From NCBI RefSeq assembly GCF_007752535.1, contig NZ_CP036426.1, positions 3,658,001 to 3,722,000 of the forward strand: 64,000 nucleotides of DNA, written 5' to 3'. The translations under genes and the position numbers were made by a program. The notes beneath the pieces are model-generated. The model was given only the letters and a program-made list of their open reading frames with translations, was not told the origin of the DNA and did not search any database. The stretch comes from Tautonia plasticadhaerens (lineage in GTDB: Bacteria > Planctomycetota > Planctomycetia > Isosphaerales > Isosphaeraceae). Shown here piece after piece: positions 1-16,151 of this stretch (positions are counted from its first letter, which is position 1; each line of letters starts with the position of its first letter).

Positions 1-1302
1 TCTCTCCCCGATGATCTTCGTCCGCTCCTGATCCTCCTTGCCTTGCACGAGCACTTTGTCGATGCAGATTCTCTGGAAGCGATGGCGAAGGATGTGGACA
101 AGTCCTGGACCCGAGACCGCATCGACCAGTTCGTCTCCATCCTCTCCAACGCCGGGCTCCTGCGTAATCGCGGGCTGGCGATCTACGAGATCCATCCTGC
201 CCTGACCGGCTTCCTCCGCTCGACCTCATCGACCTCGGCCGCGGCCGCCCGCGATCCGTGGTGCCGGGCATTTTCTAAGGTGATAGGATCCATAGGTGTT
301 CGTGTCATCGGGTGTCCCGTCCACGAGCAGCGCGGGCCGTTCTCGGTCCATTCGACAAACTTCAATCGCGCTTGGGAGGAGGCAAGCAGGTTGGAGATGG
401 ACCGGATTGCCACAGGCTTGGTCGCGACCCTGGCATCCTATGCCCAGAATACGTGGAACTTCCAGCACGCCGAACGATTGTTGCAACGGCTCACTGAGTC
501 TCGACTTGTCAGGGAGAATGAAAGACTTAGAGCCGGCTACTATCACCAACTGGGGGTTGTGGCCCAGCTCCGCTGGGATCTGGACGCCGCCGAACGCTGG
601 TATGCCAAGGCCCTGGAGATCAAGGAGCGGTTGGGCGTCGAGGCCGGCCCCGCAGCTACCTATCACCAACTGGGAATGGTGGCCCAGCTCCGCTGGGATC
701 TGGACGCCGCCGAACGCTGGTATGCCAGGGCCCTGGAGAGCTTCGAGCGGCTGAGCGTCGGGCCCGGCCGCGCGTGTTCCTACCACCAGTTGGGGACAGT
801 AGCCCAGGACCGGGAGGATCTGGACGCCGCCGAACGCTGGTACACAAAGGCCTTGGAGATCTCCGAGCGGCTGGGCGACGAGCCCAGGGCCGCAGGCACC
901 TACCATCAGCTGGGGAGGGTGGCCCAGGACCGGGGGGACCTGGACGACGCCGAACGCTGGTATGTGCGCTCCCTGGAAATCAAGGAGCGGTTGGGCGACG
1001 AGGCTGGGGTCTCTCTCGCCTATCACCAGTTGGGGATCGTGGCCCAGCTCCGCTGGGATCTGGACGCCGCCGAATGCTGGTATGCGCGTTCCCTGGAGAT
1101 CTCCGAGCGGCTGGGCGACGAGGCCGGGGCCGCGCGCACCTACACCAATCTGGGGATCGTGGTCCAGGACCGGGGAGACCAAGGCGCCGCCGAACGCTGG
1201 TACACAAAGGCCCTGACTGTATGGACGAAAACGGGCAATGAACAAGAAAGGGAGAACACTCAGAGATTGCTAGACAAACTGCGGGACGGCTCCGCGTCGT
1301 AA
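1..1302 (+). CDS. TPR-repeat protein, C-terminal part of a STAND-type NTPase-like protein (5' end outside window)
   Basis: The reading frame is open from base 1, so the start lies upstream; the first in-window start (TTG at 43) is probably internal. The first 75 residues look like the helical/winged-helix region that follows the NTPase in STAND proteins, with a 'YEIHPALTGFLR' motif. After a degenerate unit come six tetratricopeptide units of exactly 40 residues, each with a YHQLG...AERWY core. In STAND proteins such repeats are the sensor arm and the unseen upstream part would carry NACHT/NB-ARC and an effector; that part is inference. The next gene begins 43 nt downstream on the same strand, suggesting an operon. 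An ordinary TPR scaffold remains possible. Confidence 0.8.
   Translation, partial: SLPDDLRPLLILLALHEHFVDADSLEAMAKDVDKSWTRDRIDQFVSILSNAGLLRNRGLAIYEIHPALTGFLRSTSSTSAAAARDPWCRAFSKVIGSIGVRVIGCPVHEQRGPFSVHSTNFNRAWEEASRLEMDRIATGLVATLASYAQNTWNFQHAERLLQRLTESRLVRENERLRAGYYHQLGVVAQLRWDLDAAERWYAKALEIKERLGVEAGPAATYHQLGMVAQLRWDLDAAERWYARALESFERLSVGPGRACSYHQLGTVAQDREDLDAAERWYTKALEISERLGDEPRAAGTYHQLGRVAQDRGDLDDAERWYVRSLEIKERLGDEAGVSLAYHQLGIVAQLRWDLDAAECWYARSLEISERLGDEAGAARTYTNLGIVVQDRGDQGAAERWYTKALTVWTKTGNEQERENTQRLLDKLRDGSAS
541..1260 (+). repeat. Six tandem 120-bp units encoding TPR motifs
   Basis: Six head-to-tail units of exactly 120 bp start at 541, 661, 781, 901, 1021 and 1141. They share long identical stretches such as the block for 'DLDAAERWY', at DNA as well as protein level, which points to recent amplification or gene conversion. 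Confidence 0.9.
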
Positions 1303-1345
1303 GCCCCTGTTTCGACCAGTGGCATTTCCCCAATGAGGTGCACCC

Positions 1346-1813
1346 ATGCTCGACGACCAGATTCGGCAGCTCAAGGACGACGAGGCCATTCGCATCCTGG
1401 AAGCGGTGGCCGACGCGAAACTGAACCTGGATGAGCAGGATTTCCAGACGGCGCTGACACCGGACCTGGGGCAGGCCCTCCGGGAGGAGTTCGCGGTGGA
1501 GCTGGGGGAAGAGACGATGACTAGCGCGGGGGATCTGGCCCGCGAGGCGTTGATCGTCCTGGCCGAGGACGAGGCCGAACGCCCGGCCCTGGAGGCCTTC
1601 CTCCGCAATCCGTCGGCCGCCCCGAGCCGGATGGTCCTGCTGGAGGCCGCCGGGACGACCGCCATCGTCGTCGCCGCCCTGGTCGCCCTCCAGACCCGCG
1701 TGACGATCCGGCGCGACACCAAGGGCAACCTCTCCTGGACAATCGACAAGAAGCCGACCGAGATCCCCCTCCTCAAGCCGCTCGTGGCCAGGCTCACCGC
1801 GCTCCTCGGCTGA
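1346..1813 (+). CDS. Small acidic protein with one hydrophobic segment, partner of the TPR protein
   Basis: The product has 155 residues. The first ~95 are acidic and helical ('LKDDEAIRILEAVADAK'); one hydrophobic segment follows at about 101-117; a basic tail contains 'RVTIRRDTKGNLSW' and 'KKP'. A GAGGTG ribosome site lies just before the ATG. It follows the TPR gene by 43 nt. I recall similar small proteins beside NACHT/CHAT/TPR genes in planctomycetes and cyanobacteria, but I cannot name a family. It might be a membrane anchor or adaptor; this is inference from context. Confidence 0.65.
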   Translation: MLDDQIRQLKDDEAIRILEAVADAKLNLDEQDFQTALTPDLGQALREEFAVELGEETMTSAGDLAREALIVLAEDEAERPALEAFLRNPSAAPSRMVLLEAAGTTAIVVAALVALQTRVTIRRDTKGNLSWTIDKKPTEIPLLKPLVARLTALLG

Positions 1814-2840
1814 TCGCCGGCTTGCGGCACGTCCGTCCGTCGTCCTCGGGGACAGTGACCTGAGCGTTCCTCGAAGCGTCGTCCGATGAGGACCCCGAGG
1901 TCGCCGGCCGAACTCGCCTCGATTTCTTGTGAGTGGATTTCCACATTGCCACGATACTTCTTGTGTGGGGCCGTGCTGCGTGCCCCGGTCTGACCCTCCC
2001 GGGTGGACCCTCGTTCCTTGGCAATGCGATGGCGATGGAGACGGCAACGAGGTTCGATCTCGATCGGATTGCGCGCCCCTATTCCCGTCGGCTCTGCCAG
2101 GCTTACCTCCTCCCCCTGTTAAGGCCGCTCGGGCAGCGAGGGTCGTCTGCAAGTGATCTCCCGAAACGAACCAGGGCTCATTCGCGATATCATTGACGGG
2201 GAAGCGAGTTGCGTCATCTCGACTTGGCGTTTCGTTGCGCACCGTCCGGCGAAACCGAGGCGCACCCGGAGGATCGAGGGGGCCGCTTCGGACTGCTCGG
2301 GGTGTCTGGCGGGGTGGGATCGGGGCGATGCGCGGAGCGAACCCGTTTGGTTTGGCGAAATCAATTACAGGTCAAGATGTTACGGTGATCACGGCTCGGC
2401 GTGCCCGGCGCACCGGTCGGAATCGGCCAGCCTGCGGGCGTCCGTAATCGGGCCTGGGAGCCGGGGCGGGGAGTGGCGATCGGGACGACCCGGGGGAGAC
2501 GGCGGGTCGCGGCGCGGACCGAACTCATTTGAATTCCTGGAATCGCTTTTGGGTTCAGGAGTTGCGTTGATCGAGGGTGGCGCGCCGAGGCGCACCGAGC
2601 CGGGACCGGGCGGCTCGGCGGCGAAAGATCGGCCCGCGAGAAGCCCAGCAAGGTCAGGTCCCGGGGGCGGCCGGATGAGGACAGGTCGTGAGGGGTGCGG
2701 GGGGAGGGGCTCGGGGCGTACGCATTGGCAGGGGGTTGCGGCGGCGGATACAACGGATGAAGAGGAACCGGGGATGACGGTGCCCGTTGGCGTGTCGGCG
2801 GGGCACCCCCGACCGCGAACCGGGCCAACCGGACCGACCC
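1814..2840. other. Long intergenic region without a convincing gene
   Basis: About 1 kb with only shadow reading frames of biased composition and no motif, ribosome site or family resemblance. It holds one diverged copy (2332-2420) of the dispersed repeat described near 41.4 kb. Confidence 0.6.
2332..2420 (+). repeat. Diverged copy of the AAGCCAATT/CGGCGCACCGG dispersed repeat
   Basis: It begins GCGGAGCGAACCCGTTTGG and ends with a CCCGGCGCACCGGTCGG block, in the same order as the two copies at 41432 and 41615. Its conceptual translation (GANPFGLA...ARRARRTG) also matches theirs (GAKPFGFA...RARRTG). Similarity is clear at both ends and weak in the middle. Confidence 0.45.
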
Positions 2841-5018
2841 ATGGCCGGACCCCGCATTCGAACCGAGGAGGCCCGGCGGCCCGGCCCCGGCCCCCGGGTG
2901 GAGCGGCTCGAAGGCAAGGTCCTGCCGACGAGCTTCACCATGACCTCGCCGACGAGCCGGGGGCCGTTGCCCGACGGGGTGACGGAGGTGGGGGGGATCG
3001 TCCTGGACCTGGTCGGCGGCAACGGGGCGAGGGTGGTCGCCCAGGTCGGGGCCGGGGACCTGTTCGTCGGGGCCTTCGACGACGGCAGCCCGGCCGAGTT
3101 CCGGGGCAACCCGGGGACGATCGGGGAGCGGTCGGGGTTCTCCCCCGAGGTCGTCGACGCCCTCGGCGGCGAGCTGGCCGAGCTGGCCGTCCGGATCACC
3201 CTCTTCGACGGCGACACCGGGCCCGGCGACTTCGACGACGACGGCCGGAACCTCCTGCTGATCAACGGGGAGCCCGTCGGCCGGTTCGACGAGGTCGCCA
3301 CCGAGCAGACCGACGAGTCGGGCCGGCGGTCGATCTCGACCAACCCGGGGGGCGGCTTCCGGGACGAAGTGCTCGACACCGGTTTCTTCCACCTGACCGA
3401 CCGGGCCGCCCTGGCCCGGATCCTCGACTCGATCCGGGAGGCCGGGACGGCCTCCTTCCAGCTTTGGGACGAGACGCCGTTCGACAACTTCTTCGACTTC
3501 ACGAGCGGCCTCGACGGCGGCCTGATCGACGGCGACCGCCCCCCCGAGCCCGAGAACCGGCCCCCGACCCTGGAGTCGCTCCGGCTCGACGGCCCCGCCC
3601 TGGAAGGGACCCCGGCCCGGTTCGTCGCGGCCGGCTCCGACCCCGATCCGGGAGACGTGTTAACCTATGAATTCGACTTCGACGGCGACGGCCGCTTCGA
3701 GGTCTCCTCCCCCCTCGGCGAGGCGACGGCCACGTTCCCCGACGACGGCCCCGCGTTCGTCTCCGCCCGGGTCCTCGATGGCCGGGGGGGCGAGGCCCGG
3801 TCCTCCCTGCCCGTGGTCGTCGGCAACGTCTCCCCGGCGGTCCGGGGGCCGTCCGAACAGGAGTCCTCGGAGGGTTCGGAGACAAGCTTCTCCCTGGGAT
3901 CCTTCGACGACCCGGGGCTCGAAGGCGAGTGGACGGTGTCGGTGGACTGGGGGGACGGCTCCCCGGCCGAGGCCTTCGAGGTCGAGGAGGCCGGCCCCCT
4001 GGGCCTGAGGCCGCACCGATACGAGCAGGACGGGACCTACGAGGTGACGGTCCGGGTCGGGGACGGCGAGGGGCAGGGCGAGGCGACCTCCCGGGTCCGG
4101 GTCCGGAACGAGGGGCCGAGGCTGTCGGGCGCCTCGGCGCCGGGGAGGGTCGAACTCGGGGGGCCGATCGACCTGCAAGCGGGCTTCTCCGACCCCGGCC
4201 GGCTCGACGCCTTCCGGGCGACGATCGACTGGGGCGACGGGGTCATCAGCCGGATCGACCTCCCCCCCGGCTCGACCTCGGTCTCGGCCCAGCACGAGAT
4301 CGGCCGGGCCGGGACCTACGCGATCACCCTGACCGTGGCCGACGACCGGGGATCGGCCGCGACGGTGAGCCTGCCCGTCTCGGTCGTTTCCCCCGAGCCC
4401 CCGGCCCCTCCGCCCCCCCCGCCGACGAGCTCGCCGGGATCGTCGGCCGACCGGGCGTTGGCGGAGGCCCTGCTGCCGAGCGGCCCGGGATCGGCCCCGA
4501 GGGCGGCTGGCGGCCCGATCCCCGAGGTCCCGTCGACGCCGGCCCCGGCCGTCGGCGTCCCGGTCGCGACCCTCCAGGCCCCGCAGGCCCCGCACGCCCA
4601 GTCGGCGTCCGTCTCCCCGGACCTGCCCCTTGTGCTCCCCCTTTCGACCGCCCCCGGAGGCTCGCCGACGCCCCCCCCGCCGGCCCCCGGGGCCGACGAC
4701 TCCCCGGTGGCCGAGGCCGAGGTCGAGGCCGAAGCGGCCCCGATGCTCGCGGCCCAGGGAGGGGAGGGGCCGGGCGTGGCCGACCCGGACGCCCCCGCCA
4801 CGGTCCGGGAGACGGGGTTCGTCTCGTCGCAGGCCCCGGCCCCGGGGGCCGAGGCCGCCGGGGGGGACGGGTCGGCGTCCCCGGGGGGAGACGGATCGGG
4901 GTCTCGGGGGGCCCGGGTGATGGTGCTGATCGTCGCCATGCTCGGCCTCCGACGCCGTCGCCCCCTCACCGCGAGGCGGCTGACCGGGGCCGCGATCCGG
5001 AGGGGCGCCGGGCGATGA
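2841..5018 (+). CDS. Secreted PKD-domain protein with planctomycete N-terminal motif and C-terminal anchor-like tail
   Basis: The ATG at 2841 gives 725 residues; a start 18 codons upstream adds only low-complexity sequence. Residues ~16-28 (RVERLEGKVLPTS) match the 'LExR.LL'-type motif near the N terminus of many exported planctomycete proteins. An undefined domain rich in FDGD/FDDDG follows to ~245, then three PKD-like beta domains (~246-510), two with WGDG cores. A Pro/Ala/Glu linker (~515-690) leads to a short hydrophobic stretch (VMVLIVAMLGL) followed by RRRR, resembling a C-terminal sorting signal but without PEP. Its stop overlaps the start of the next gene (ATGA). It is probably an extracellular or wall protein; its ligand is unknown. 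Confidence 0.8.
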   Translation: MAGPRIRTEEARRPGPGPRVERLEGKVLPTSFTMTSPTSRGPLPDGVTEVGGIVLDLVGGNGARVVAQVGAGDLFVGAFDDGSPAEFRGNPGTIGERSGFSPEVVDALGGELAELAVRITLFDGDTGPGDFDDDGRNLLLINGEPVGRFDEVATEQTDESGRRSISTNPGGGFRDEVLDTGFFHLTDRAALARILDSIREAGTASFQLWDETPFDNFFDFTSGLDGGLIDGDRPPEPENRPPTLESLRLDGPALEGTPARFVAAGSDPDPGDVLTYEFDFDGDGRFEVSSPLGEATATFPDDGPAFVSARVLDGRGGEARSSLPVVVGNVSPAVRGPSEQESSEGSETSFSLGSFDDPGLEGEWTVSVDWGDGSPAEAFEVEEAGPLGLRPHRYEQDGTYEVTVRVGDGEGQGEATSRVRVRNEGPRLSGASAPGRVELGGPIDLQAGFSDPGRLDAFRATIDWGDGVISRIDLPPGSTSVSAQHEIGRAGTYAITLTVADDRGSAATVSLPVSVVSPEPPAPPPPPPTSSPGSSADRALAEALLPSGPGSAPRAAGGPIPEVPSTPAPAVGVPVATLQAPQAPHAQSASVSPDLPLVLPLSTAPGGSPTPPPPAPGADDSPVAEAEVEAEAAPMLAAQGGEGPGVADPDAPATVRETGFVSSQAPAPGAEAAGGDGSASPGGDGSGSRGARVMVLIVAMLGLRRRRPLTARRLTGAAIRRGAGR

Positions 5019-5569
5019 TGAGCCGATCGGACCCCCCGGGCCGCTCCCTTGCCGCCGAGGGCGCCGTCGAGCACACTCCCCGGGGCGAAGGCCCCGGGCC
5101 GGACCCGACGCCCCCCCGAGCCGAGGACGCCATGTCGAGCCCGAGCCAGGACTCCTCCCCGCCCGACCCGGTCGGCCAGGAGCTGCTCTTCTTCGGCAAC
5201 GAGGAGATCCTCCGGGGCTCCGACAACGGCACGCTGGTCGCCTTCGCCGCCATCGCCTTCCAGGAGCTGAGGGGGGGCGGCGAGTCGGTCCACCGCGTCG
5301 GCTGCATCTTCCTGCTCTTCAGCGTCCTGTTCTGCGCCCTGGTCCACTTCGCGCTGGGGAACGCCTATATATACCGGGCCCGGTCGATGATCCGCCGCCA
5401 GCCCTCGTCCAGGCCCCGCCGCCGGGCGGTGTTCCGGGTGGTGAACCTGGGGCTGGTCTGGGTGACGGTCCTCTCCCAGTTCGCCTGCCTCGCGGTGGGG
5501 CTGCTGCTGATCCTGCCCGAGCGGCCCCCCGGCCTGCTCGTCCGCCACCTGCTGCCGCTGTTCGAGTAG
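5015..5569 (+). CDS. Membrane protein of unknown function, coupled to the PKD protein
   Basis: The start overlaps the preceding stop in an ATGATGA arrangement, implying translational coupling; an ATG at 5132 (145 residues) is the conservative alternative, because residues 1-39 are low complexity. The conserved-looking part has 'ELLFFGNEEILRGSDNGTL', an amphipathic region, then two transmembrane segments at about 96-118 and 147-168 separated by a basic loop (RARSMIRR...RPRRR). I recognise no family. The context suggests an envelope role with the secreted PKD protein. Confidence 0.65.
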   Translation: MMSRSDPPGRSLAAEGAVEHTPRGEGPGPDPTPPRAEDAMSSPSQDSSPPDPVGQELLFFGNEEILRGSDNGTLVAFAAIAFQELRGGGESVHRVGCIFLLFSVLFCALVHFALGNAYIYRARSMIRRQPSSRPRRRAVFRVVNLGLVWVTVLSQFACLAVGLLLILPERPPGLLVRHLLPLFE

Positions 5570-5570
5570 C

Positions 5571-5584
5571 CCCCCAGGCGGGGG
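5571..5584 (+). terminator. Small GC hairpin after the membrane protein
   Basis: A CCCCC/GGGGG stem with a four-base loop begins one base after the stop codon. There is no T-run. It is a weak candidate. Confidence 0.3.
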
Positions 5585-5772
5585 AATCCCCTTGCGCGTT
5601 GCATCGGCCGGGATGACGGGACAGAAGCGATCGAGCGCCGGCCCAGATCCCCTTCCCCCCTCCGACGGCCCTCCCGATCGCGGAGATCGGAGGCCCCCCG
5701 AGAGGCGCCCGCCATGATCCCCCTGCGATCGGCCGCCCGCCCGACCACGCGAAGCCCTGCCATGATCGCCCC

Positions 5773-5982
5773 GATGCCCCCGCCGTCGTCCTCGACCCGA
5801 TCGGCCGGGCCACCGACGCCTACGGCGTGACCTCGATCCCGACCCTGGTGCTCATCGACCGGGCGGGGACGGTGTGGGCCGTCCACCTCGGCGCGGGGGA
5901 GGCGGTGCTCGACGCCCTCCGGGACGAGATCGACGCCCTCCTCGACGGCCTCCCTCGACCGTCCCCGACGGGGGACCGTTGA
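5773..5982 (+). pseudogene. C-terminal remnant of a TlpA/AhpC-type thioredoxin-fold protein
   Basis: A frame ending in TGA at 5980-5982 encodes about 65 residues that read like the second half of a thioredoxin fold: 'DAYGVTSIPTLVLIDRAG' carries the cis-proline strand motif, followed by a 'VLDALRDEIDALL' terminal helix. No N-terminal half, CxxC or credible start lies upstream; the preceding ~200 bp is not coding. The family's usual length is 140-180 residues, so only the 3' third survives. It faces the 3' end of the next gene, whose own C terminus is a complete TlpA-like domain. It may be left over from a deletion or duplication. Confidence 0.6.
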
Positions 5983-5995
5983 CGGCCCCCAAGGG

Positions 5996-8900
5996 TTAGC
6001 GGGGGGCCAGGAGATTTTTGATCTCCTCCTCCAGATCGACGCTTGACGGGTGGCCTCGCCAGGCGATCCGGCCCTCCGGGTCGATCAGGACCGCGGTCGG
6101 CACGCCCCGGATCGCGTACGAGAGGCTGGCCCGGGGCACGTCGCTCCCCTCGGGACCGGGGACCTCCTCCGGATCCGGGGCCGGGCTCCAGAGGTGTCGG
6201 ATCGAGCCCAGGCCCCGGGTCGTGACGTACCGCCGCAGCACGTCGCGGTCCTCGTCGATCCCCACCGCCACGATCGCGACCCGATCCTTCCAGTCCTCTC
6301 CCCGACTCGCCCCCAGGGCGGCGAGCCGCTCGATCGGCTCCCGGCAGGGGCCGCACCAGGTCGCCCAGAACTCCAGCAGGACGACCCGGCCGGAGAACTC
6401 CGAGAGGAACACCTCCCGGCCCGATTCCAGGTCCCGGGCCAGGCCCTCGGGCGCCCGATCGCCGGCCATCGGCGGCATCCTCAGGGTGACCGACTGCTCG
6501 GCCGGCTCCCGATCGATCCGGAACGGTTCGAGCGACACCTCCCCGACCTCGACCGTGTACATCCCGCCCGCCGGGTCGTCGCCGCTGGCGGCGACCCCCT
6601 CGATCCGGATCCGCCCCGAGGCGTCGAAGGTCCCCCCGGCGACCGGCAGCTCGTCGTAGTTCGCCAGGCGATACCAGACCCGATACGACTTGCCTGCGAG
6701 GCTCCCTCCCCCGGCCGGCTCGACGGTGATCGTCGCCGACCGGTCCCCCCGCCAGGCGTCCCGGTCGAACGGGGGCGGTTCGAAGCGGGCTGATTTGGTC
6801 CGCCCTGCCTCCAGGTCGAGCTTCCGGGCCTCCCGGTAGACGCCGGGATGGGCCTCCCGCCATCGGCTCGGGTCGCGCCCCTCCCGGGGGGTCGTCGAGG
6901 CGTGCAGGTGATACCTCCCCGGTGCGAGCCCACGGATCGTCGCCCGCCACTCGTCCCCCTCGAAGGCGCCCGACTCGACGATCGGGATCGAATCCCCGTT
7001 TCCCGGCAGCATCGGGCCGACCCAGTAGGAGCCCCCGGCGAAGGGGGATTTCCCTCCTCCCCCGGTATCCGGCCGGAGCGAGACTTCAAGCGTCGCCGGC
7101 TCCGGCAGGACGACGTCCCAGCGCCCGCCGAGCACGTCCGACGGCATCACCGGCCCCTCGACGTAGAATCGGATCAGCTCCGGATGGCTGATGCCGAGCG
7201 TGAGCGGCTCCTCCGCGTCGTCCGGGAGCCGGAAGGCGAACACCCCGTCCTCCGATCGGCCGACGTTGAGCAGGTTGGACCGCTCGATCTCCCGATCCCG
7301 GGCCTCCTGGTCGCCGTAGGAGAGGATCATCATCGCCGAGTCCCGGTGCCTCGCCGTCGCCAGCAGCGGCAGGGGGAGCAGGTCGCCCGGGACCGGCCTT
7401 CCCGACGCATCGCGGACGGTCAGGCGGACCTCGGTGCCCCGTTCCAGGGTCACGTCCACATCTCGGCGACCTTCGATCGCGCCGAGGGGGACGATCGTCG
7501 AGGCGAACCCGGGGGAGCGGACGACCAGGTCGCCGCCGTTCCAATCGAGCAGCTCCTCGGGGGTCAGGGCCGCCCGGCCGCCCTCGCCGATCGCCGAGGG
7601 GGGGGCGATCTGGGGGGCGTACAGCAGGATGTCGAAGTCGTCGACCGGGGCCCCGTGCTCGTCCCGGGCCCGGACGAGCAGGCCCGGCTCCTCCGGGTCG
7701 TCGAGCGGCCGGGCCCCGGCCGCGAGCGGTCCTCTTGCCTCGGCGACGAGCTCGACCGGCCCGGGGTCGCCCTCCTCCGGGACGTCGAGCCGCGCGACCC
7801 CCGAGAAATCGGCGCTCTGCCGAGACGCGTTCGGCGTCGAGGCCCGGATGGCGTCGAGCCGGAACTCGTAAGACCCGGGGGGCAGGGGAGGGGTCTCGAA
7901 CGTCCCATCGGGCCCGACCGGGAGGACGTCGAGGTGGGTGAGGTACCGCGTCGGCTCCCCCGAGGGCCTCGGCTCCTCCTCCGGGCCCCAGTAACTGATG
8001 GTGACGTGGGCATAGCGGAGCTTGACCCCGTCGAGCCCCCGCACCCGGCCCCGGGCGGGACGGCCCTCCCGGCGGTCGAACGAGGCCGACGCCCGGCCCC
8101 CGCGGTCGACCGCCAGCAGGGTCCGCTCGCTCGGGGTGAGGAGGAGGCCCCAGCCGCCCCGGTCGGTCATGTTCAAGCGCTCGACCACGAACCGGGCCGG
8201 CGGCAGGTGCTCGACGACTTTCCGGCCCGGGTTGTCGACCCCGACGTCCCGGAGGTAGAGCACGTCCGACTCCCAGTCGACCCCGTCGAACGTCCGGGAG
8301 ACGACCTGGAAGTCCTGGGTGTCCGGCTTCCCGGGCACGTCGCACCGGATCTCGATCGACCCCGGCTCCGGCAGCCGGACCTCGACGTCCCCCGATCGGG
8401 GCAAGGCCGACCGGGGGACCGTCCAGAGCAGCACCTCGTCGGCGATCACGGCGATCCGGTCGGCCTCCGAGCCCGGGCGTCTCAGGGAGAACGCCCCCCG
8501 ATCGTCGGTCGTCGCCGAGGCCGTCGCCGGGCCCTCGGGGAGTTCGGGCCTCCTCATCCAACTCGTCGAGAACCCCTCGCCCTCGGCCTCGGGGATCGCG
8601 AAGACGGTGAGCGTCTCCTCCCCGAGCAGGAAGACCTCCGCGTCCCGTACCGGCCGGTCCCGGTGGTCGATTACCCTCCCCCGGACCTCGACGCCGGCCG
8701 GCCAGCGATCCTCCGGCGCGGGCTCGCCGCCCGGGGGCGCCTCGGCGAGGGCGATCGCCCCGGGAGGGGGCGCGAGGGCCCCGGCCCGGGGGGCCCGCGC
8801 CACCGTGATCAGGGCACCCCCGGCGACGACGAACCCCGAGAGGACGACGATCCCGATGGCCTTGACGTTGGCGAGGATCATGCCGGTGAGCACCCCCGAG

Positions 8901-9649
8901 ACCAGGGCCGACCCGGAGGCCGAGGTGACTTCCGCGAGGGGCTTGCCGGCGGCGATCAGCGCCGAGGTCCGGATCGTCCGGCGGAGCAGGGCCGCCGGGA
9001 TCGCCTCCCGGGCGGCCGCGAGCGTCATGGAAGACGGGGCCAGCCCGCGACGGGAGAGTCGGCGTCGCAGCCGCTCCCGGGCCGTCGCCAGCCGACGCTT
9101 GAGCGTCCCGGTCGGCCATCGGAGCTGCCGGGCCGCCTCGTCCCGGGTCAGGCCCCGGACGTCGCAGAGGATTACCGGCACCCGGTACTTCTCCGGGAGC
9201 CTCGCCAGCTCCTCGTCGATCGCCCGGCGCAGGTCGTCCCGGTCGGCCCCCTCGGACTGGGATTGCCCCCGGGCCTCGGGATCGATCAACAGCTCCCGGG
9301 TGCGTCGGCGGAGGGCGTCGGCCCGGGCCCGGACGGCGACCCGGTGGGCCACCCCGTAGAGCCAGGGGCCCAGCCGATCCGGGTCCCGGAGCGACCCGGC
9401 CTTGCGGGCGAGGATCAGGAAAGTCGCCTGGAAGGCGTCCTCCACGTCCCTCGGGTCGCGCAGGGCCCTCCGGCAGAGCCCCAGGACCATCGGCCCGTGT
9501 TTGTTGACGATCGCCTCGAAGGCGATCTCGTCCTGATGCTCGACGAAGCGTCCCAGCAGCGGGCCGTCTCCCAGCCCCGAGGCGCTCCCCACCTCGAAGA
9601 GCGTCCGGAAGGCCTGCTCGGCGGTCGTCCTCGGGCTCGGCTGTGACAT
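5996..9649 (-). CDS. ECF sigma factor fused to membrane segment, extracytoplasmic repeats and TlpA-like thioredoxin
   Basis: This 1217-residue protein starts as a complete ECF sigma factor: region 2 at ~40-110 (DVEDAFQATFLILAR) and region 4 at ~140-200 (LPEKYRVPVILCDVRGLTRD, then a helix-turn-helix). A hydrophobic segment at ~262-284 would place the rest outside the cytoplasm. The middle ~750 residues contain several beta-rich, carboxypeptidase-regulatory-like units (VRGRVIDHRDRPVRDAEVFL is one). The last ~150 residues are a TlpA/ResA-type redoxin with 'FWATWCGPC' (Cys ~1099 and ~1102) and a cis-Pro 'GVPTAVLID'. Planctomycete ECF factors with long C-terminal extensions are known; a redox output or sensor linked to transcription is inference. 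The ATG is chosen because sigma region 2 lies close behind it. Confidence 0.85.
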   Translation of the reverse strand: MSQPSPRTTAEQAFRTLFEVGSASGLGDGPLLGRFVEHQDEIAFEAIVNKHGPMVLGLCRRALRDPRDVEDAFQATFLILARKAGSLRDPDRLGPWLYGVAHRVAVRARADALRRRTRELLIDPEARGQSQSEGADRDDLRRAIDEELARLPEKYRVPVILCDVRGLTRDEAARQLRWPTGTLKRRLATARERLRRRLSRRGLAPSSMTLAAAREAIPAALLRRTIRTSALIAAGKPLAEVTSASGSALVSGVLTGMILANVKAIGIVVLSGFVVAGGALITVARAPRAGALAPPPGAIALAEAPPGGEPAPEDRWPAGVEVRGRVIDHRDRPVRDAEVFLLGEETLTVFAIPEAEGEGFSTSWMRRPELPEGPATASATTDDRGAFSLRRPGSEADRIAVIADEVLLWTVPRSALPRSGDVEVRLPEPGSIEIRCDVPGKPDTQDFQVVSRTFDGVDWESDVLYLRDVGVDNPGRKVVEHLPPARFVVERLNMTDRGGWGLLLTPSERTLLAVDRGGRASASFDRREGRPARGRVRGLDGVKLRYAHVTISYWGPEEEPRPSGEPTRYLTHLDVLPVGPDGTFETPPLPPGSYEFRLDAIRASTPNASRQSADFSGVARLDVPEEGDPGPVELVAEARGPLAAGARPLDDPEEPGLLVRARDEHGAPVDDFDILLYAPQIAPPSAIGEGGRAALTPEELLDWNGGDLVVRSPGFASTIVPLGAIEGRRDVDVTLERGTEVRLTVRDASGRPVPGDLLPLPLLATARHRDSAMMILSYGDQEARDREIERSNLLNVGRSEDGVFAFRLPDDAEEPLTLGISHPELIRFYVEGPVMPSDVLGGRWDVVLPEPATLEVSLRPDTGGGGKSPFAGGSYWVGPMLPGNGDSIPIVESGAFEGDEWRATIRGLAPGRYHLHASTTPREGRDPSRWREAHPGVYREARKLDLEAGRTKSARFEPPPFDRDAWRGDRSATITVEPAGGGSLAGKSYRVWYRLANYDELPVAGGTFDASGRIRIEGVAASGDDPAGGMYTVEVGEVSLEPFRIDREPAEQSVTLRMPPMAGDRAPEGLARDLESGREVFLSEFSGRVVLLEFWATWCGPCREPIERLAALGASRGEDWKDRVAIVAVGIDEDRDVLRRYVTTRGLGSIRHLWSPAPDPEEVPGPEGSDVPRASLSYAIRGVPTAVLIDPEGRIAWRGHPSSVDLEEEIKNLLAPR

Positions 9650-9808
9650 GAGATCCGTCCCGTCGGTTGCGAGGGGTCATCCCCAACGTACTGCGGGGAT
9701 CGGGGCGTTGGATCCCGCTTTCTCCCCGATTCTCCCCGGACCTTCCGGACCAGGAGTGGCGCCGGGGACGACGGGACGGGGGCCGAGGCGAGGAGGGGGA
9801 CGATCCCG

Positions 9809-9837
9809 TTGTCCGGCGTCGGGGAGGGCGATAGGGT
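9809..9837 (+). promoter_or_regulatory. Putative promoter of the sialidase-like gene
   Basis: TTGTCC and TAGGGT are separated by 17 bases, about 74 bases before the ATG at 9911. It fits the TTGnnn-17/18-TAnnnT pattern seen elsewhere in the window. Confidence 0.4.
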
Positions 9838-9910
9838 AGGGCGGCCCGGGTCGAGGCAACGCAGTCGAGTCGCCGGAGACTGCCGCCCCGGGCATCGAGG
9901 AGTCCGCACC

Positions 9911-11008
9911 ATGTCGATCGTCGCGCTCGCGGCCGGGATCCTGCTGATCGCCCCCTCGCCCCTTCCCCCCGGGGTCGACGCCCCGGCCGGGGGGACGCTC
10001 CAGGTCCGCCGGGTCTTCGGCCCGGAGATCGAGACCGGCCCGTACAAGCACCCGGCCTGCATGGCCGAGCTGGACGGCGGCGACCTCTACCTCGTCTACT
10101 ACGGCGGCGCCGGCGAGTACGCCACCGACACGGCGGTCTACGGCTCCCGGCTGGCGAAGGGCTCCGACGCCTGGACCGCCCCCGAGGTGATCGCCAGGGA
10201 CCCCTTCCGGTCGGCCGGCAACGGCGTGATCTGGCAGGCGCCCGACGGCCGGGCCTGGCTCTTCTACGTCGTCCGGTTCGGGGAGACGTGGTCGAGCTCC
10301 CGGATCCAGTTCAAGGTCTCCGACGACGGCGCCCGGACCTGGTCCGACGCCTCGGTGCTGGCCACCGAGCCGGGCATGATGGTCCGCAACCGGCCGATCG
10401 TGCTCGACGACGGCTCCTACCTGCTGCCCGCCTATCTGGAGAAGGGGGAGGACACCGAGTCGGTCGCGCCCGACAGCACCTCGCTCTTCTTCCGCTTCGA
10501 CCCCCAGGACCCGACGGGCGGCTGGGTCGAGCTGGGGCGCATCCGGTCGCCGAAGGGGAACATCCAGCCGGCCCCGGTGCAGCTCGACGACGGCCGGATC
10601 GTCGCCTACTGCCGACGGGGGGGCGGCTACGGCCCGACGACCGACGGCTACCTCGTCCGGGCCGAGTCGACCGACGGCGGCCTGACCTGGACCGAGGGGG
10701 TCGACTCCCCCTTCCCGAACCCGAACGCGGCGGTCGACTTCCTGGAGCTGGACGGCGGCGATCTCCTGCTCGTCTACAACGACAGCATGAGCCGGCGCAC
10801 CCCCCTGGCCGTCGCCCTCTCGACCGACGACGATCAGTCCTACCCCCACCGCCGGGCCATCGCCGACGGCGAGGGCGACTTCGCCTATCCCATCGCCTTC
10901 CAGGCCGAGGACGGCCGGATCCACGTCGTCTTCACCTCCGATCGCCGGTCCGTGGTCAACCACGCGATCTTCGATGAGGCCTGGATCCGAGGTGGGGACT
11001 CGGAGTGA
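9911..11008 (+). CDS. Secreted sialidase/neuraminidase-like (BNR) protein
   Basis: The product has 365 residues with a short N-terminal hydrophobic signal (residues 1-18). It shows the six-bladed propeller signature of sialidases: Asp-box-like motifs 'SDDGARTWSD' (~138) and 'STDGGLTWTE' (~258), with 'DDGSYLLPAY' and 'QLDDGRIVAYCRR' strands between. Family members act on sialic acid or other glycosides outside the cytoplasm, but in planctomycetes the substrate is often unknown. It lies convergent to a beta-helix protein, consistent with a polysaccharide-degradation neighbourhood. Catalytic residues cannot be assigned by eye. Confidence 0.8.
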   Translation: MSIVALAAGILLIAPSPLPPGVDAPAGGTLQVRRVFGPEIETGPYKHPACMAELDGGDLYLVYYGGAGEYATDTAVYGSRLAKGSDAWTAPEVIARDPFRSAGNGVIWQAPDGRAWLFYVVRFGETWSSSRIQFKVSDDGARTWSDASVLATEPGMMVRNRPIVLDDGSYLLPAYLEKGEDTESVAPDSTSLFFRFDPQDPTGGWVELGRIRSPKGNIQPAPVQLDDGRIVAYCRRGGGYGPTTDGYLVRAESTDGGLTWTEGVDSPFPNPNAAVDFLELDGGDLLLVYNDSMSRRTPLAVALSTDDDQSYPHRRAIADGEGDFAYPIAFQAEDGRIHVVFTSDRRSVVNHAIFDEAWIRGGDSE

Positions 11009-11069
11009 GGGGCGAACTCGGATGACGGGCGACGGATGAACGCGATTGGATCGCGACTCGGGCGGACGA

Positions 11070-11090
11070 GGGCCGGACGCCTCCCGGCCC
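11070..11090. terminator. Hairpin between convergent genes
   Basis: A GGGCCGG/CCGGCCC stem with a seven-base loop sits between the convergent sialidase-like and beta-helix genes. There is no T-tract, so it could act in either direction. Confidence 0.35.
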
Positions 11091-11118
11091 GTCCTCGGTC
11101 ATCCGTCCTGCTCGTCCG

Positions 11119-12273
11119 TCACGGCTGCGGGCCCTCCTCCCTCGGCCCCGCCGGGCGGGCGGGGCTGTCGGGGGGGAGGCCCAGGTCGCCCTGCTTGGGG
11201 TCGGGGAAGCGGGGGTCGACGCCGGCCCGGCCGTCCTGCTCGGGCAGGTCGAGGCGGGGGAGGCCCCGGCCGGGCTCGTCGACGCAGAACCAGACGTTCC
11301 TCGCCAGCTCGAACGTCTCGGGGGCGGTGCCGGGGCCGATGTTGATCGGGATCGCCAGCTCGTCGGATCGGTAGGCGATGATGTTGTCGGTGAACCGGCC
11401 GTTTCGGCTCGGGGCGAACTCCGGCCCGTCGCTCTCCTGGAGGATCCGGAGCGCGAACCGGCCGGGCCGGTAGAAGATGCAGTGCCGCACCACCGCCCCG
11501 TCCACCCCCACGAACGCCACGCCGGCCGTCGAGCCGACGACGACGCAGTCTTCCACCGTCAGGTCCTTCGCCTCGTACCCCGGATCCGGCGGCCGGAAGT
11601 ACGGCCGGCCGGTGCTGCCGCCGAGGTTCAGGGCCCGGTCCCCCGCCCGTTCGAACCGGCATCGCCGGACCGACACGTCGGAGCTTCCCCCCTTGGCCTG
11701 CACGCCGTTGCCCCCCCGGCCGCCGCCGTCCCGGAAGGTGCAGCCGACGATCGTCCCCCGGTGGCATCCCACCAGGTCGATCCCCGAACCCCCCGACCCC
11801 CAGCGCTCGACCGTGCAGCCCTCGACCTGGAACGCATCAACGCCCGAGAGCTTGATCCCGTCCCGATTCCCGTCCGGCCCCACGTCCCGCACCACCAGCC
11901 CCTTCAGCGTGACGTGGTGGGCCGGCGTGGCGCCCGAACCGCCGTCGTCGATGTTCAGCCCGTTGCCCGATGCCCCTTCCAGCACCAGGTCTCGCAGCTC
12001 GACGTGCCTCGGCCCGGCCAGGTGAATCCCGGATCCTCCCCCCCGGATCACCGGCGGCCGCGCCGGGTCGGCCGCCGCGATCACGATCGGCCTGCCCGGC
12101 TCACCTTCGAGGCCCGGGACGCTCAGTCCCCCCTCGTACTCCCCCGGCTCCAGGGCGATGGTCGTCCCCGGGGCGGCCGAGGCCAGGGCCTCGCGCAGAC
12201 CGGCCGAGTCCGAGACGGTGTCGGTCGGGCCGGGGAGGGCGGCGGCAAGGATCAGGACGAGTTCGGTCATCAT
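11119..12273 (-). CDS. Secreted right-handed parallel beta-helix repeat protein
   Basis: The product has 384 residues with a short hydrophobic N terminus (MMTELVLILAAALPGP) and the opening 'SDSAGLREALASAAPGTTI' typical of pectate-lyase-like or NosD-like proteins. Successive ~22-residue coils follow (HVELRDLVLEG, FQVEGCTVERW, VSVRRCRFERAGD, LTVEDCVVVGS). Such proteins bind or cleave polysaccharides outside the cytoplasm. The Gly-rich turns and a C-terminal Pro-rich tail are visible; lyase catalytic residues are not identifiable by eye. It is convergent with the sialidase-like gene. Confidence 0.8.
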   Translation of the reverse strand: MMTELVLILAAALPGPTDTVSDSAGLREALASAAPGTTIALEPGEYEGGLSVPGLEGEPGRPIVIAAADPARPPVIRGGGSGIHLAGPRHVELRDLVLEGASGNGLNIDDGGSGATPAHHVTLKGLVVRDVGPDGNRDGIKLSGVDAFQVEGCTVERWGSGGSGIDLVGCHRGTIVGCTFRDGGGRGGNGVQAKGGSSDVSVRRCRFERAGDRALNLGGSTGRPYFRPPDPGYEAKDLTVEDCVVVGSTAGVAFVGVDGAVVRHCIFYRPGRFALRILQESDGPEFAPSRNGRFTDNIIAYRSDELAIPINIGPGTAPETFELARNVWFCVDEPGRGLPRLDLPEQDGRAGVDPRFPDPKQGDLGLPPDSPARPAGPREEGPQP

Positions 12274-13015: not shown

Positions 13016-15862
13016 TTAATCGCCATTCTCCGGCCCCGCCCCCGAGGCGGCAAGGGCGGCCGAGAGGACGCGGCCGGTGGGGGAGTCGACCCGGGAGACG
13101 GCCTCCGGGGGGCCCTCGGCGACGATGAGGCCGCCGGCCGAGCCGGCGCCGGGGCCGAGGTCGATGATCCAGTCGGCGCAGAGCATCAGCTCGGGGTTGT
13201 GCTCGACGACGACCAGCGAGTTCCCCAGGTCCGCCAGCGTGTTCAGGCAGTCGATCAGCGTGAGCACGTCCGAGGGGTGCAGGCCGGTCGTCGGCTCGTC
13301 GAGCAGGAACAGGGCCCTCGGCCGCTCCGATCGCCTCGTCGCCGAGGCGGCCGAGGTGGGCAGGTGCGAGGCCAGCTTCAGCCGCTGCGCCTCGCCCCCG
13401 GAGAGGGTCGAGGCGGGCTGGCCGAGTCGGAGGTAGTCGAGGCCGACCTCCATCAGCGGCCGGAGCTTCGCCTGCACCTTCGGCCGGTTCTTGAAGAAGC
13501 CGAACGCCTCCCGGACGGTCAGATCCAGGACCTCGGCGATGTCCTTCCCCCGGTAGGTGACCTCCAGCGTCTCGGGACGATACCGGGTGCCCCGGCACTC
13601 TGGGCATCGGACCATCACGTCGGTGAGGAATTGCATGTCGATGACCTGGAAGCCGTTCCCCTCGCAGGCGTCGCAGCGCCCCCCGGCGACGTTGAAGCTG
13701 AACCGGCTGGGGCCGTAGCTGCGGAGCTTCGCCTCGTGCGTGGCGGCGAAGGCCTTGCGGATCTCGTCGAAGGCCTTGAGGTACGTCACCGGGTTCGACC
13801 GCGCAGACCGGCCGATCGGCGACTGGTCGACCAGCACCACCTCGTCGATCGCCCCGGTGCCGAGCAGCTCCCGGAACGGCTCTCCCGGCTCGTGCTCCCC
13901 CTTCAGGCGGCGGAGCAGGGCGGGGTAGAGCGTCCGGTCCACCAGCGTGCTCTTGCCCGAGCCGCTGACCCCCGTGACCACGCAGATCAGGCCCGTCGGG
14001 AACGACACGTCGACATCCCTGAGATTGTGCCCGGTCGCCCCCTTCAGCGTGATCCTCTCCTCGCCCGGCTGTCGACGCCTCGCCGGCGGCACCACGCGAC
14101 GGCGCCGGGAGAGGAAGGCGCCGGTCGCCGATTCCGGGACATCCGCCACCCCCTCCGGCGGACCGTCGTAGAGGATCCGGCCGCCCGCCGTCCCGGCCCC
14201 GGGACCCACGTCGACGAGCCGGTCGGCCGCCCTCATGATCGCCTCGTCGTGCTCGACGACGACGACCGCGTTGCCCCGATCCCTCAGGTCGACCAGGCTG
14301 GAGACCAGGCGGTCGACGTCGCTGGGGTGCAGGCCGATCGACGGCTCGTCCAGCACGTAGAGCGTGTTGACCAGCCCCGAGCCCAGGGCCCTCGTCAGCG
14401 CCACCCGCCTCGCCTCGCCGCCGGAGAGGGTCCGGGCCTGGCGGTCGAGCGTCAGGTAGTCCAGGCCGATCCTCCCGAGGTAGCCCAGCCGGGCCAGCAC
14501 CGGGTCGATCGCCCGTCGGGCGACGGGCCCGGCGACCTCATCGGAGGATGCGAATGCGTCGAGGATCCCCCGGGCCTCGCCGATCGGCAGCGCCGACAGC
14601 TCCGAGACGTCCTTCCCGGCGACCTTCACCGCGAGCGCCTCGGGCCGGAGCCGGGCGCCGTCGCACTCGGGGCAGGTCCGGTAGCCCCGCCATCGGCTGA
14701 GGAAGACCCGGACGTGCATCTTGTAGATCTTCCGCTCCAGCCAGGCGAAGAACCGCCTCAGGCCGAGGAAGCCCTGCCTCGGCACCCCCTCGACGATCAG
14801 CGTCACCTGCTCCGGGTCCAGATACTTGAACGGCCGGTCGGTGGGGATGCCGAGCGCAGGGGCCACGCGCAAGAGGTCGTCGAGGTGCTCCCGGTACTTC
14901 GGCGTCGTCCACGGGGCGATGGCACCGCCCTCGATCGACTTCGACGGGTCGGGCACGATCCGCCCCAGGTCCAGGTCGATGATCCTCCCGAACCCCTTGC
15001 ACGACGGGCAGGCGCCGACCGGGCTGTTCGAGCGGAACAGGCGGGGCTCCGGGGCCATGTGCTCGGTGCCGCACCCGGCGCAGCGCCAGCCCCGATAGAA
15101 CGTGAGCACATGGTCCTCGGCGATGACCCGGCAGCGGCCGAGGCCCCGGTCGAAGGCCGTCTCGATCGAGTCCCCCCGGCGGCCGGGATCCTCCTTGCCC
15201 CGGACGAGGCGGTCGACGATCACGTCGATGGTCGTCGACCCGTCCGGCGGCCCGGGGACCGGCCCCTCCTCGATCGTCCGCACGTCGTCGCCGGCCCGGA
15301 CGCGGAGGAAGCCGTCCTCGCGGAGCATGGCGGCCAGGGCGTCCCGGTCGGTGTCGGGGCGGATCTCGACGGGGAAGCCGACCTGATAGCGGGCCCCTTC
15401 GGGGAGCTGCTCGATCGCCGCCACGACCGCCCCGGCGTCGGCCGGCCGGACCTCCTGCCCGCAATTCATGCACATGACCCGGCCCAGCCGGGCGTAGAGC
15501 ACGGCCAGGTAGTCGTCCACCTCCGTGACCGAGCCGACGGTGCTCCGGCTCGACCGCCGGCCCTGCCGCTGCGAGACGGCGATGGCCGGCGGCAGGCCCT
15601 CGATCCGGTCGGCCTCGGGCTTGTCGAGCGTCTCCAGGAACTGCCGGGCATAGGGGGAGAACGTCTCGACGTACCGGCGCTGGCCCTCGGCGTAGAGGGT
15701 GTCGAACGCGAGCGAACTCTTGCCCGAGCCGCTGACGCCGGTGAAGACGATCAGCTCGTCGCGCGGGAGGTCGAGGTCGACATTCTTGAGGTTGTGGACC
15801 CGGACGCCCCTCAGCCGCATGAGGTCCGTCTCGGCGTGCGGTCCGGCGATCGGGGCGGTCAT
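13016..15862 (-). CDS. uvrA: UvrA family excinuclease ABC subunit A
   Basis: The product has 948 residues, the usual UvrA length. The ATG is preceded by AGGAGG five bases away. Two ABC modules are present: Walker A 'TGVSGSGKSSL' (~40) and 'TGVSGSGKSTL' (~645), each with an LSGGEA signature and a DEP Walker B. Zinc modules appear as CAGC...CPSC and CDAC...CPEC. The family scans DNA for bulky damage and loads UvrB. The insertion sequence around 'ETFSPYARQFLETLDKPEADRIEG' and 'QGRRSSRSTVGSVTE' resembles a UvrA subclass distinct from the standard E. coli-like protein, so this may be a second UvrA rather than the main repair enzyme. No uvrB or uvrC lies nearby. Confidence 0.9.
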   Translation of the reverse strand: MTAPIAGPHAETDLMRLRGVRVHNLKNVDLDLPRDELIVFTGVSGSGKSSLAFDTLYAEGQRRYVETFSPYARQFLETLDKPEADRIEGLPPAIAVSQRQGRRSSRSTVGSVTEVDDYLAVLYARLGRVMCMNCGQEVRPADAGAVVAAIEQLPEGARYQVGFPVEIRPDTDRDALAAMLREDGFLRVRAGDDVRTIEEGPVPGPPDGSTTIDVIVDRLVRGKEDPGRRGDSIETAFDRGLGRCRVIAEDHVLTFYRGWRCAGCGTEHMAPEPRLFRSNSPVGACPSCKGFGRIIDLDLGRIVPDPSKSIEGGAIAPWTTPKYREHLDDLLRVAPALGIPTDRPFKYLDPEQVTLIVEGVPRQGFLGLRRFFAWLERKIYKMHVRVFLSRWRGYRTCPECDGARLRPEALAVKVAGKDVSELSALPIGEARGILDAFASSDEVAGPVARRAIDPVLARLGYLGRIGLDYLTLDRQARTLSGGEARRVALTRALGSGLVNTLYVLDEPSIGLHPSDVDRLVSSLVDLRDRGNAVVVVEHDEAIMRAADRLVDVGPGAGTAGGRILYDGPPEGVADVPESATGAFLSRRRRVVPPARRRQPGEERITLKGATGHNLRDVDVSFPTGLICVVTGVSGSGKSTLVDRTLYPALLRRLKGEHEPGEPFRELLGTGAIDEVVLVDQSPIGRSARSNPVTYLKAFDEIRKAFAATHEAKLRSYGPSRFSFNVAGGRCDACEGNGFQVIDMQFLTDVMVRCPECRGTRYRPETLEVTYRGKDIAEVLDLTVREAFGFFKNRPKVQAKLRPLMEVGLDYLRLGQPASTLSGGEAQRLKLASHLPTSAASATRRSERPRALFLLDEPTTGLHPSDVLTLIDCLNTLADLGNSLVVVEHNPELMLCADWIIDLGPGAGSAGGLIVAEGPPEAVSRVDSPTGRVLSAALAASGAGPENGD

Positions 15863-15884
15863 CGGGCCTCCTGTGATGCGACGC

Positions 15885-16151
15885 TCAACGATCGGCGATC
15901 GGGCCTGCCGCCTCGCCGCCGGAGGGGCGGATCGCGTCCCAGTCGATCTCGGCGACCCAGAGGTTCTCCTCGGCCGAGAACAGGACGCGACCATCGGCCT
16001 CCAACTCGTCGTCCGAGAGCACAAGCCGCATCCCGTCGCTGAGTTCGAGGCGATGCCTGGCCAGATCCTCGGCGGTCCCCCGACAGTTCAGCCGGAGTCG
16101 GCCGCGCGGGTCGGCGTTGTGGAAGTCGGCGAAAACGGTCGGCGTGTCCAT
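15885..16151 (-). CDS. Small acidic protein, second gene of a two-gene cassette
   Basis: The product has 88 residues, is acidic and apparently soluble: MDTPTVFADFHNADPRGRLR, then 'GTAEDLARHRLELSDGMRL', 'LSDDELEADGRVLFSAEENLWVAEIDW'. The predicted strands suggest a small beta-rich fold. It follows the gene upstream by five bases, implying co-transcription. I do not recognise it. Its size, charge and pairing would suit an immunity or antitoxin role, which is inference only. Confidence 0.65.
   Translation of the reverse strand: MDTPTVFADFHNADPRGRLRLNCRGTAEDLARHRLELSDGMRLVLSDDELEADGRVLFSAEENLWVAEIDWDAIRPSGGEAAGPIADR

Follow-up and report, generated by a model that had tools for sequence, protein, structure and literature searches.

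The stretch of DNA analysed here (the window) comprises 64,000 nucleotides of Tautonia plasticadhaerens, a member of the Isosphaeraceae (contig NZ_CP036426.1, positions 3,658,001 to 3,722,000), and contains a gene, P0001, in which a complete extracytoplasmic function (ECF) sigma factor is followed by a linker, a membrane helix, a beta-rich tail and a redoxin. P0001 is one ATG-to-stop frame that occupies exactly positions 5996-9649 of the reverse strand, encodes 1217 amino acids and has no internal stops. The presence of a complete ECF sigma factor with regions 2 and 4, claimed in an earlier note made from the sequence alone, is borne out by matches to PF04542 (Sigma70_r2; residues 48-112, positions 9314-9508 on the same strand, E 7.7e-11) and PF08281 (Sigma70_r4_2; residues 142-194, 9068-9226, E 7.8e-10), both of which, like the Redoxin match described below, exceed the Pfam curated cut-offs. 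No other sigma70 regions are found among the Pfam hits, as is characteristic of ECF sigma factors, and the NCBIfam model TIGR02937 scores 70.3 bits against a cut-off of 42.9. Each sigma region contains a cysteine that is conserved in the family alignment, Cys59 in region 2 (9473-9475) and Cys162 in region 4 (9164-9166). Anti-sigma families are absent from the Pfam hits of P0001 up to E 1, and the M56 metallopeptidase family (PF05569) was not found by Pfam in this protein.

The sigma module is connected to the membrane helix by a conserved linker (residues 203-264; 8858-9043), in which P218, L221, T225, L249 and M257 are 75-90% conserved in the family alignment and which is helical in an AlphaFold2 model. 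The membrane helix itself (residues 265-283; 8801-8857) has a mean Kyte-Doolittle value of 2.39 and is likewise helical in the model. It is the single strong hydrophobic segment, as the earlier note had it, but a weaker one (residues 241-259, Kyte-Doolittle 1.48) lies directly ahead of it. The model of the sigma, linker and helix portion (residues 1-318), with a predicted local distance difference test (pLDDT) score of 84, confirmed the ECF fold and revealed nothing further; it contains a continuous helix from residue 244 to 284 that includes the membrane segment, in a block with pLDDT 90-93 up to residue 280. In Foldseek this model is matched best by ECF sigma factors, at low whole-chain template-modelling scores (TM-scores).

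Beyond the helix lies a beta-rich region (residues 284-1060; 6470-8800) that is probably extracytoplasmic. It is characterised by its CarboxypepD_reg total, by the homology of its C-terminal part to proteins with signal-peptide-like N-termini and by a low-confidence all-beta model. The carboxypeptidase-like repeats described earlier hold up in aggregate, with 37.7 bits for PF13620 summed over the whole protein (cut-off 32.3), but they are weak and each stretch taken singly falls below the cut-off, the best unit being residues 534-602 (7844-8050). The C-terminus is formed by a TlpA/ResA-like redoxin (residues 1062-1204, 6038-6466; PF08534, E 1.6e-8). In line with the active-type domain described in the earlier note, the WCGPC active-site motif (residues 1098-1102; 6344-6358) and the VPT-motif proline (residue 1184) are both present. 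TlpA and ResA are among the solved relatives of this C-terminal part, and membership of the redoxin family, a WCxxC motif and a proline loop make the domain TlpA/ResA-like, with putative thiol-disulfide oxidoreductase activity. The scores remain far below the NCBIfam equivalog cut-offs for TlpA (48.4 bits, cut-off 230) and ResA (44.2 bits, cut-off 170).

Singulisphaera acidiphila also belongs to the Isosphaeraceae, and strain DSM 18658 is the one other genome, among 45 of this family, in which we found a collinear orthologue of P0001. Residues 10-615 and 603-1215 of P0001 correspond there to two frames about 1.5 kb apart, with 43% and 48% identity respectively; the gap contains a transposase gene of the ISKra4 family (276.5 bits with NCBIfam, cut-off 205), and the WCGPC and VPT motifs are retained in the second piece. 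The insertion splits the orthologue (L074:1106-6263) after the sigma factor, the helix and the first third of the tail, and it is possible that ISKra4 has left a truncated, anchored sigma factor in this strain. At E<=1e-75, with 15 candidates scored per genome, P0001 gave matches in three of the 45 genomes, namely its own, S. acidiphila (the two pieces) and G027 (sigma part only, residues 12-281). Absence from sister genomes, which the earlier note had anticipated as an objection, is thus found in three same-genus genomes, which gave no match at this threshold, but not in S. acidiphila, where the orthologue exists in disrupted form. With the tail as query at E<=1e-25, matches were found in three of a sample of 392 genomes of the phylum, comprising its own and two stand-alone relatives. 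P0001 itself is therefore rare, and its architecture is not. A frameshift or assembly error, the other objection raised at the outset, finds no support in view of the intact frame and the S. acidiphila orthologue; more generally, it is unlikely that chance or misassembly lies behind P0001, because there is this collinear orthologue and because the same genome encodes three further sigma-redoxin chains, one of them without the cysteines.

These chains belong to a large group of paralogs. The T. plasticadhaerens genome (9.4 Mb, 6 contigs) contains 72 matches to sigma region 2, and the sigma part and linker of P0001 are common to 30 open reading frames, P0001 counted, the other 29 being 39-49% identical to it over this part while the tails differ. 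A hydrophobic segment is found 25-150 residues past region 4 in 28 of the 30; two members have almost no tail, and 28 tails were scanned. CarboxypepD_reg was detected by Pfam in eight of these (with scores of 123.4 bits in P0002 and 132.3 bits in P0004), and envelope-type tails are represented by HlyD (two by Pfam), SLBB/Poly_export (one) and CBM9 (one). TIGR03067 was found in two of the four tails scanned with NCBIfam, and WD40 Pfam families were not detected in P0001 or in any of the 28 tails. Redoxin-like ends are present on four tails (P0001-P0004) and absent from the remaining 24. P0002 (C1:946609) carries WCGPC and P0003 (C1:6705959) carries WCSPC. P0004, which lies within the window (37191-41102, forward strand), encodes 1303 amino acids with the same architecture, a redoxin without CxxC and no region-2 cysteine. 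HlyD/efflux-adaptor-like tails occur on three sigma-module proteins (L045, L046 and L048; in L046 by NCBIfam, below the cut-off). The 278-kb second contig contains a head-to-tail trio of sigma-CarboxypepD_reg proteins (L044, G000:C2:144500-157000; 766-5085, 5169-8240 and 8244-11210, all on the reverse strand), in the last of which no segment reached the hydropathy threshold. Two adjacent, divergent sigma-module genes are located at L031 (G000:C1:6703600-6709200), one having a tail with TIGR03067 and a terminal redoxin (WCSPC), the other a tail in which Pfam recognises nothing.

The same arrangement was seen in named genomes, from which 80 loci with 81 sigma open reading frames of the module were kept. 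At least 150 residues follow region 4 in 79 of the 81 and a hydrophobic segment is present in 78, at a median distance of 64 residues past region 4 (61 residues for the 28 in T. plasticadhaerens); a further strong hydrophobic segment within the tail was seen in one of these 78 and in none of the 28. That planctomycetes possess extended ECF proteins, as the earlier note stated, is known. Both Cys59 and Cys162 are kept in 104 of the 112 aligned sequences; as P0001 is entered twice, the count for distinct members is 103 of 111. According to the available part of a review (PMC8999054), group ECF57, whose model member is a Singulisphaera acidiphila protein, has as its hallmark two cysteines, one each in sigma2 and sigma4, for which no residue numbers are given. 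We refer to the module as ECF57-like because both of its sigma regions have a conserved cysteine, a likeness drawn through the described pair.

Tails of one type are not confined to sigma factors. Searching with P0002 returned matches in 17 of the 45 family genomes, its own included, and 30 P0002-type loci were fetched. The N-terminus is a sigma factor in 21 of them and multi-helical in nine, identified by Pfam as Peptidase_M56 in all nine cases. A redoxin was seen in 12 of the 21 sigma-type loci and in none of the remaining nine loci with a sigma factor, and the M56-borne redoxin tails occur both with and without CxxC. One relative (in G039) contains two in-frame stops and its first frame lacks a redoxin. 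Two of the M56 loci were checked for neighbours, and in both the end of a BlaI-type repressor gene lies immediately upstream of the M56 gene. The portion of BlaR1 past the last membrane helix is an extracellular sensor; tails related to those of P0002 and P0004 therefore occupy the sensor position, since they are C-terminal on M56 modules, at the sensor end in BlaR1. For 29 tails (20 from sigma and nine from M56 proteins, L106 having been dropped as a long branch) the maximum-likelihood tree requires three changes between sigma and M56, all forced by well-supported branches, and a single clade of M56 tails is rejected (approximately unbiased test, p-AU 7e-45); a quick tree that included L106 again required three changes for the sigma label. 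Two M56 tails form a group with the tail of P0004 (L101), supported at 100/100. Tails of the P0002/P0004 type have thus been exchanged at least three times between sigma and M56 modules. The P0001 tail lies outside this tree and resembles P0002-type tails mainly in the redoxin, so that exchange is shown for a sister type and not for P0001.

Relatives of the P0001 tail are also found unattached. Residues 708-1214 and 845-1214 have counterparts, 31-32% identical, in two planctomycetes outside the family (G381 and G060), where they occupy frames of their own, 605 and 681 codons long (L079 and L080), with no sigma part, with signal-peptide-like N-termini (called from hydropathy and by eye with hand-picked start codons, not by a signal-peptide program) and with both WCGPC and the VPT proline kept. 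The earlier note placed the sigma factor inside and the redoxin outside on the same chain, and this is supported as the probable arrangement: the redoxin tail of P0001 is probably extracytoplasmic, the sigma factor cytoplasmic and a single helix lies between them, because, besides hydropathy, tail homologues have signal-peptide-like N-termini and tails of the paralog type are borne by M56/BlaR1 proteins. A single helix between sigma factor and extracytoplasmic part is the arrangement of the IutY type, here as a prediction in which the location of the tail is taken from homology. An excess of Lys/Arg ahead of the helix, which agrees with a sigma factor inside, is found in 18 of 28 members in the T. 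plasticadhaerens genome and in 41 of 78 from the named genomes, and a deficit in 5 and 20, respectively.

The combination of sigma and redoxin domains in one chain, for which the earlier note proposed a search, recurs. A total of 128 sigma modules, collected partly with a redoxin-bearing query, form an enriched set in which an in-frame redoxin is present on 17 (with CxxC in 12 and without it in five); this proportion is not a frequency, because rows found with the redoxin-bearing query are included. In the named sample alone, four of 81 are redoxin-tailed, excluding the orthologue split by the insertion sequence. In a FastTree tree of the 128 modules the redoxin state needs 11 changes, at least six of them forced by starred branches, and a single clade of redoxin-tailed sigma modules is accordingly rejected. 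The cysteine-less redoxins speak, at least in part, for a use in binding or sensing. The earlier proposal that the redoxin implies a signal linked to redox state or heme maturation is not supported, given the five of 17 without CxxC, the 24 of 28 tails without a redoxin and the four nearest larger neighbours scanned, none of them a cytochrome-maturation gene. A redox signal is nevertheless plausible for P0001, since WCGPC is intact in P0001 and its relatives.

Nine open reading frames of the window were scanned for domains, and a link to heme or cytochrome maturation found no support, as none of the nine had a cytochrome-maturation match. The four nearest larger neighbours of P0001 among them encode a PKD/Ig-like protein (2787-5015), a BNR_2 (sialidase-like) protein (9911-11008, forward strand), a beta-helix protein (11122-12273) and a UvrA-like protein (13019-16024); a tetratricopeptide repeat protein is encoded at 43-1302 (forward strand). 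The BNR_2 gene is divergent from P0001, shares its upstream region and is a candidate target. A short frame convergent with P0001 (5767-5982, forward strand), ending 13 bp from the P0001 stop, is probably the relic of a second redoxin. It corresponds to the C-terminal half of a TlpA-like protein, on the proline side and without CxxC, and is 50% identical over 60 residues to the frame at C1:1382852 and 43% identical to the redoxin frame at C1:1384425; on its own it gives no Pfam match.

On balance we favour, with moderate confidence, the view that P0001 is a one-chain transmembrane sigma receptor with an exchangeable sensor-cassette tail, in which a signal alters the anchored sigma factor, most likely via releasing proteolysis. 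The ECF57-like N-terminal sigma factor would be held in the cytoplasm, tethered through the conserved linker and the single helix, while the long C-terminal tail outside, with the TlpA-like redoxin at its end, would serve as the exchangeable cassette. A signal at the tail would then change the state of the anchored sigma factor; regulated proteolysis of the kind described for IutY is the most likely route, and the freed sigma factor would bind RNA polymerase and turn on its targets. The sequences show the order of the domains, their conservation, the membrane segment, tail homologues with signal-peptide-like N-termini and the trading of related tails with BlaR1-type proteins; sensing by the tail, restraint of the sigma factor by the anchor and its release on a signal are steps that we infer. 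Proteolytic release from P0001 is possible by analogy, and M50 site-2-type proteases are encoded in the genome. In the available part of a study of another planctomycete, Tuwongella immobilis, five ECF sigma factors were recovered in the Triton- or SDS-soluble fractions S2 or S3 (PMC8567305), which fits membrane anchoring.

Several observations weigh against this view. M50 proteases are present in all 14 control genomes too, and the T. immobilis fractions bear on a different organism whose tail type may differ. The flanks of the P0001 helix break the positive-inside rule, with one Lys/Arg in the 15 residues before it and two after, and across the family the charge bias is only moderate. An AlphaFold2 model of the P0001 tail from a three-row alignment is all-beta with low confidence (pLDDT 52; predicted template-modelling score, pTM, 0.34), no segment of P0003 reached the hydropathy threshold, and for 14 of the 28 tails in the genome Pfam returns nothing at E<=0.001, so that these need not be envelope domains. 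Tail sharing with M56 proteins is demonstrated for the P0002/P0004 type and not for P0001's own tail, and the P0001 orthologue is rare, the sole one found being broken by an insertion sequence.

Some of these points lend themselves to other explanations. If the wrong-way flanking charges were taken at face value, the whole chain could be cytoplasmic, with the hydrophobic segment buried and the tail acting as an intracellular interaction domain, as the available part of the review proposes for some WD40-tailed ECF57 members (PMC8999054); the signal-peptide-like N-termini of tail homologues, the related tails on M56 modules and the envelope-type tails of some paralogs make this very improbable. 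Still harder to sustain is the notion that P0001 is a misassembly or a decaying, functionless paralog, for which one could cite the three same-genus genomes without a match at E<=1e-75 and the ISKra4 break in S. acidiphila: the 1217-codon frame is intact, the sigma and redoxin motifs are kept, the orthologue pieces retain 43% and 48% protein identity and sigma-redoxin chains exist in other genomes.

The more serious competitor dispenses with proteolysis. The sigma factor could stay anchored and act in transcription at the membrane, with the state of the tail opening or closing a sigma2-sigma4 clamp via Cys59 and Cys162 (as a disulfide or through a metal). Such a conformational receptor would account for the retention of both cysteines by 103 of the 111 distinct members and for the conserved, helical linker, and according to the available part of the review the activation of ECF57 proteins involves a strong change of conformation (PMC8999054). 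The pair is kept alongside differing tails, however, and hence has no special link to the redoxin; in P0004 the cysteine of region 2 is missing, and the same source doubts that a disulfide would form in the reducing cytoplasm (PMC8999054); we regard this explanation as a minority possibility that deserves attention. It is improbable that the tail is instead a working envelope enzyme or scaffold for disulfide exchange, with the sigma factor mainly coupling its expression or localisation to demand. P0001, its S. acidiphila orthologue and both stand-alone relatives all have WCGPC and the VPT proline intact, as would suit an enzyme, but CxxC is missing from five of the 17 redoxin-tailed sigma modules, and the redoxin tails on M56 modules likewise come with and without it. 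A bolder form of the receptor view, which we put forward tentatively and consider doubtful although not far-fetched, is that the Isosphaeraceae possess a cassette system for sensing at the envelope, in which one kind of extracytoplasmic CarboxypepD-redoxin sensor has been exchanged between outputs that are unrelated to each other, an anchored sigma factor and a BlaR1/BlaI protease switch; in P0001 the WCGPC motif would read the thiol state of the envelope and signal to the sigma factor in cis, perhaps via a Cys59/Cys162 clamp.

P0001 shares features with several known systems. Like the ECF57 proteins of planctomycetes it is a C-terminally extended ECF sigma factor in which sigma2 and sigma4 each have a conserved cysteine; WD40-like tails are found in some ECF57 members, where they are not required, according to the available part of the review (PMC8999054), in contrast to none of the 28 tails here. 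That part of the review's ECF57 account makes no mention of a redoxin tail or of tail sharing with BlaR1 (PMC8999054). IutY of Pseudomonas putida (ECF243) and the actinobacterial groups ECF48, ECF52 and ECF53, as far as described in the same text, also combine a sigma factor and a membrane-anchored extracytoplasmic part in one chain, and IutY is a fused sigma/anti-sigma protein freed by proteolysis through Prc and RseP (PMC8999054). P0001 differs from IutY in having no recognised anti-sigma domain, a beta-rich/redoxin cassette as its tail and no known partner receptor. M56 receptors of the BlaR1/MecR1 type with BlaI carry CarboxypepD_reg-redoxin tails of the P0002/P0004 type at the C-terminal sensor position, but their output is a metallopeptidase acting with a separate repressor, whereas in the P0001 family the sigma factor is on the same chain. 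Finally, the oxidoreductases TlpA, ResA and DsbE, known enzymes of the envelope, have in common with P0001 the redoxin family, the WCxxC motif and the proline loop; here the domain forms part of a sigma-factor fusion, several relatives are cysteine-less and the scores fall far short of the equivalog cut-offs for TlpA and ResA.

ECF sigma factors with extensions were already known from planctomycetes, as were fused sigma factors that are released by proteolysis; in the open-licence literature searched we found no report of a redoxin-tailed sigma factor or of tails shared between sigma factors and BlaR1. ECF sigma factors most commonly sense the outside through a separate, membrane-bound anti-sigma protein. 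In the P0001 family, which has about 30 related copies in this genome, sensor, membrane helix and sigma factor are combined in a single chain, and one type of tail has been traded with BlaR1-type receptors; the HlyD-like tails would link a sigma factor with a transport complex. With one-chain sensors and traded tails, what many planctomycete ECF sigma factors sense therefore becomes directly testable.

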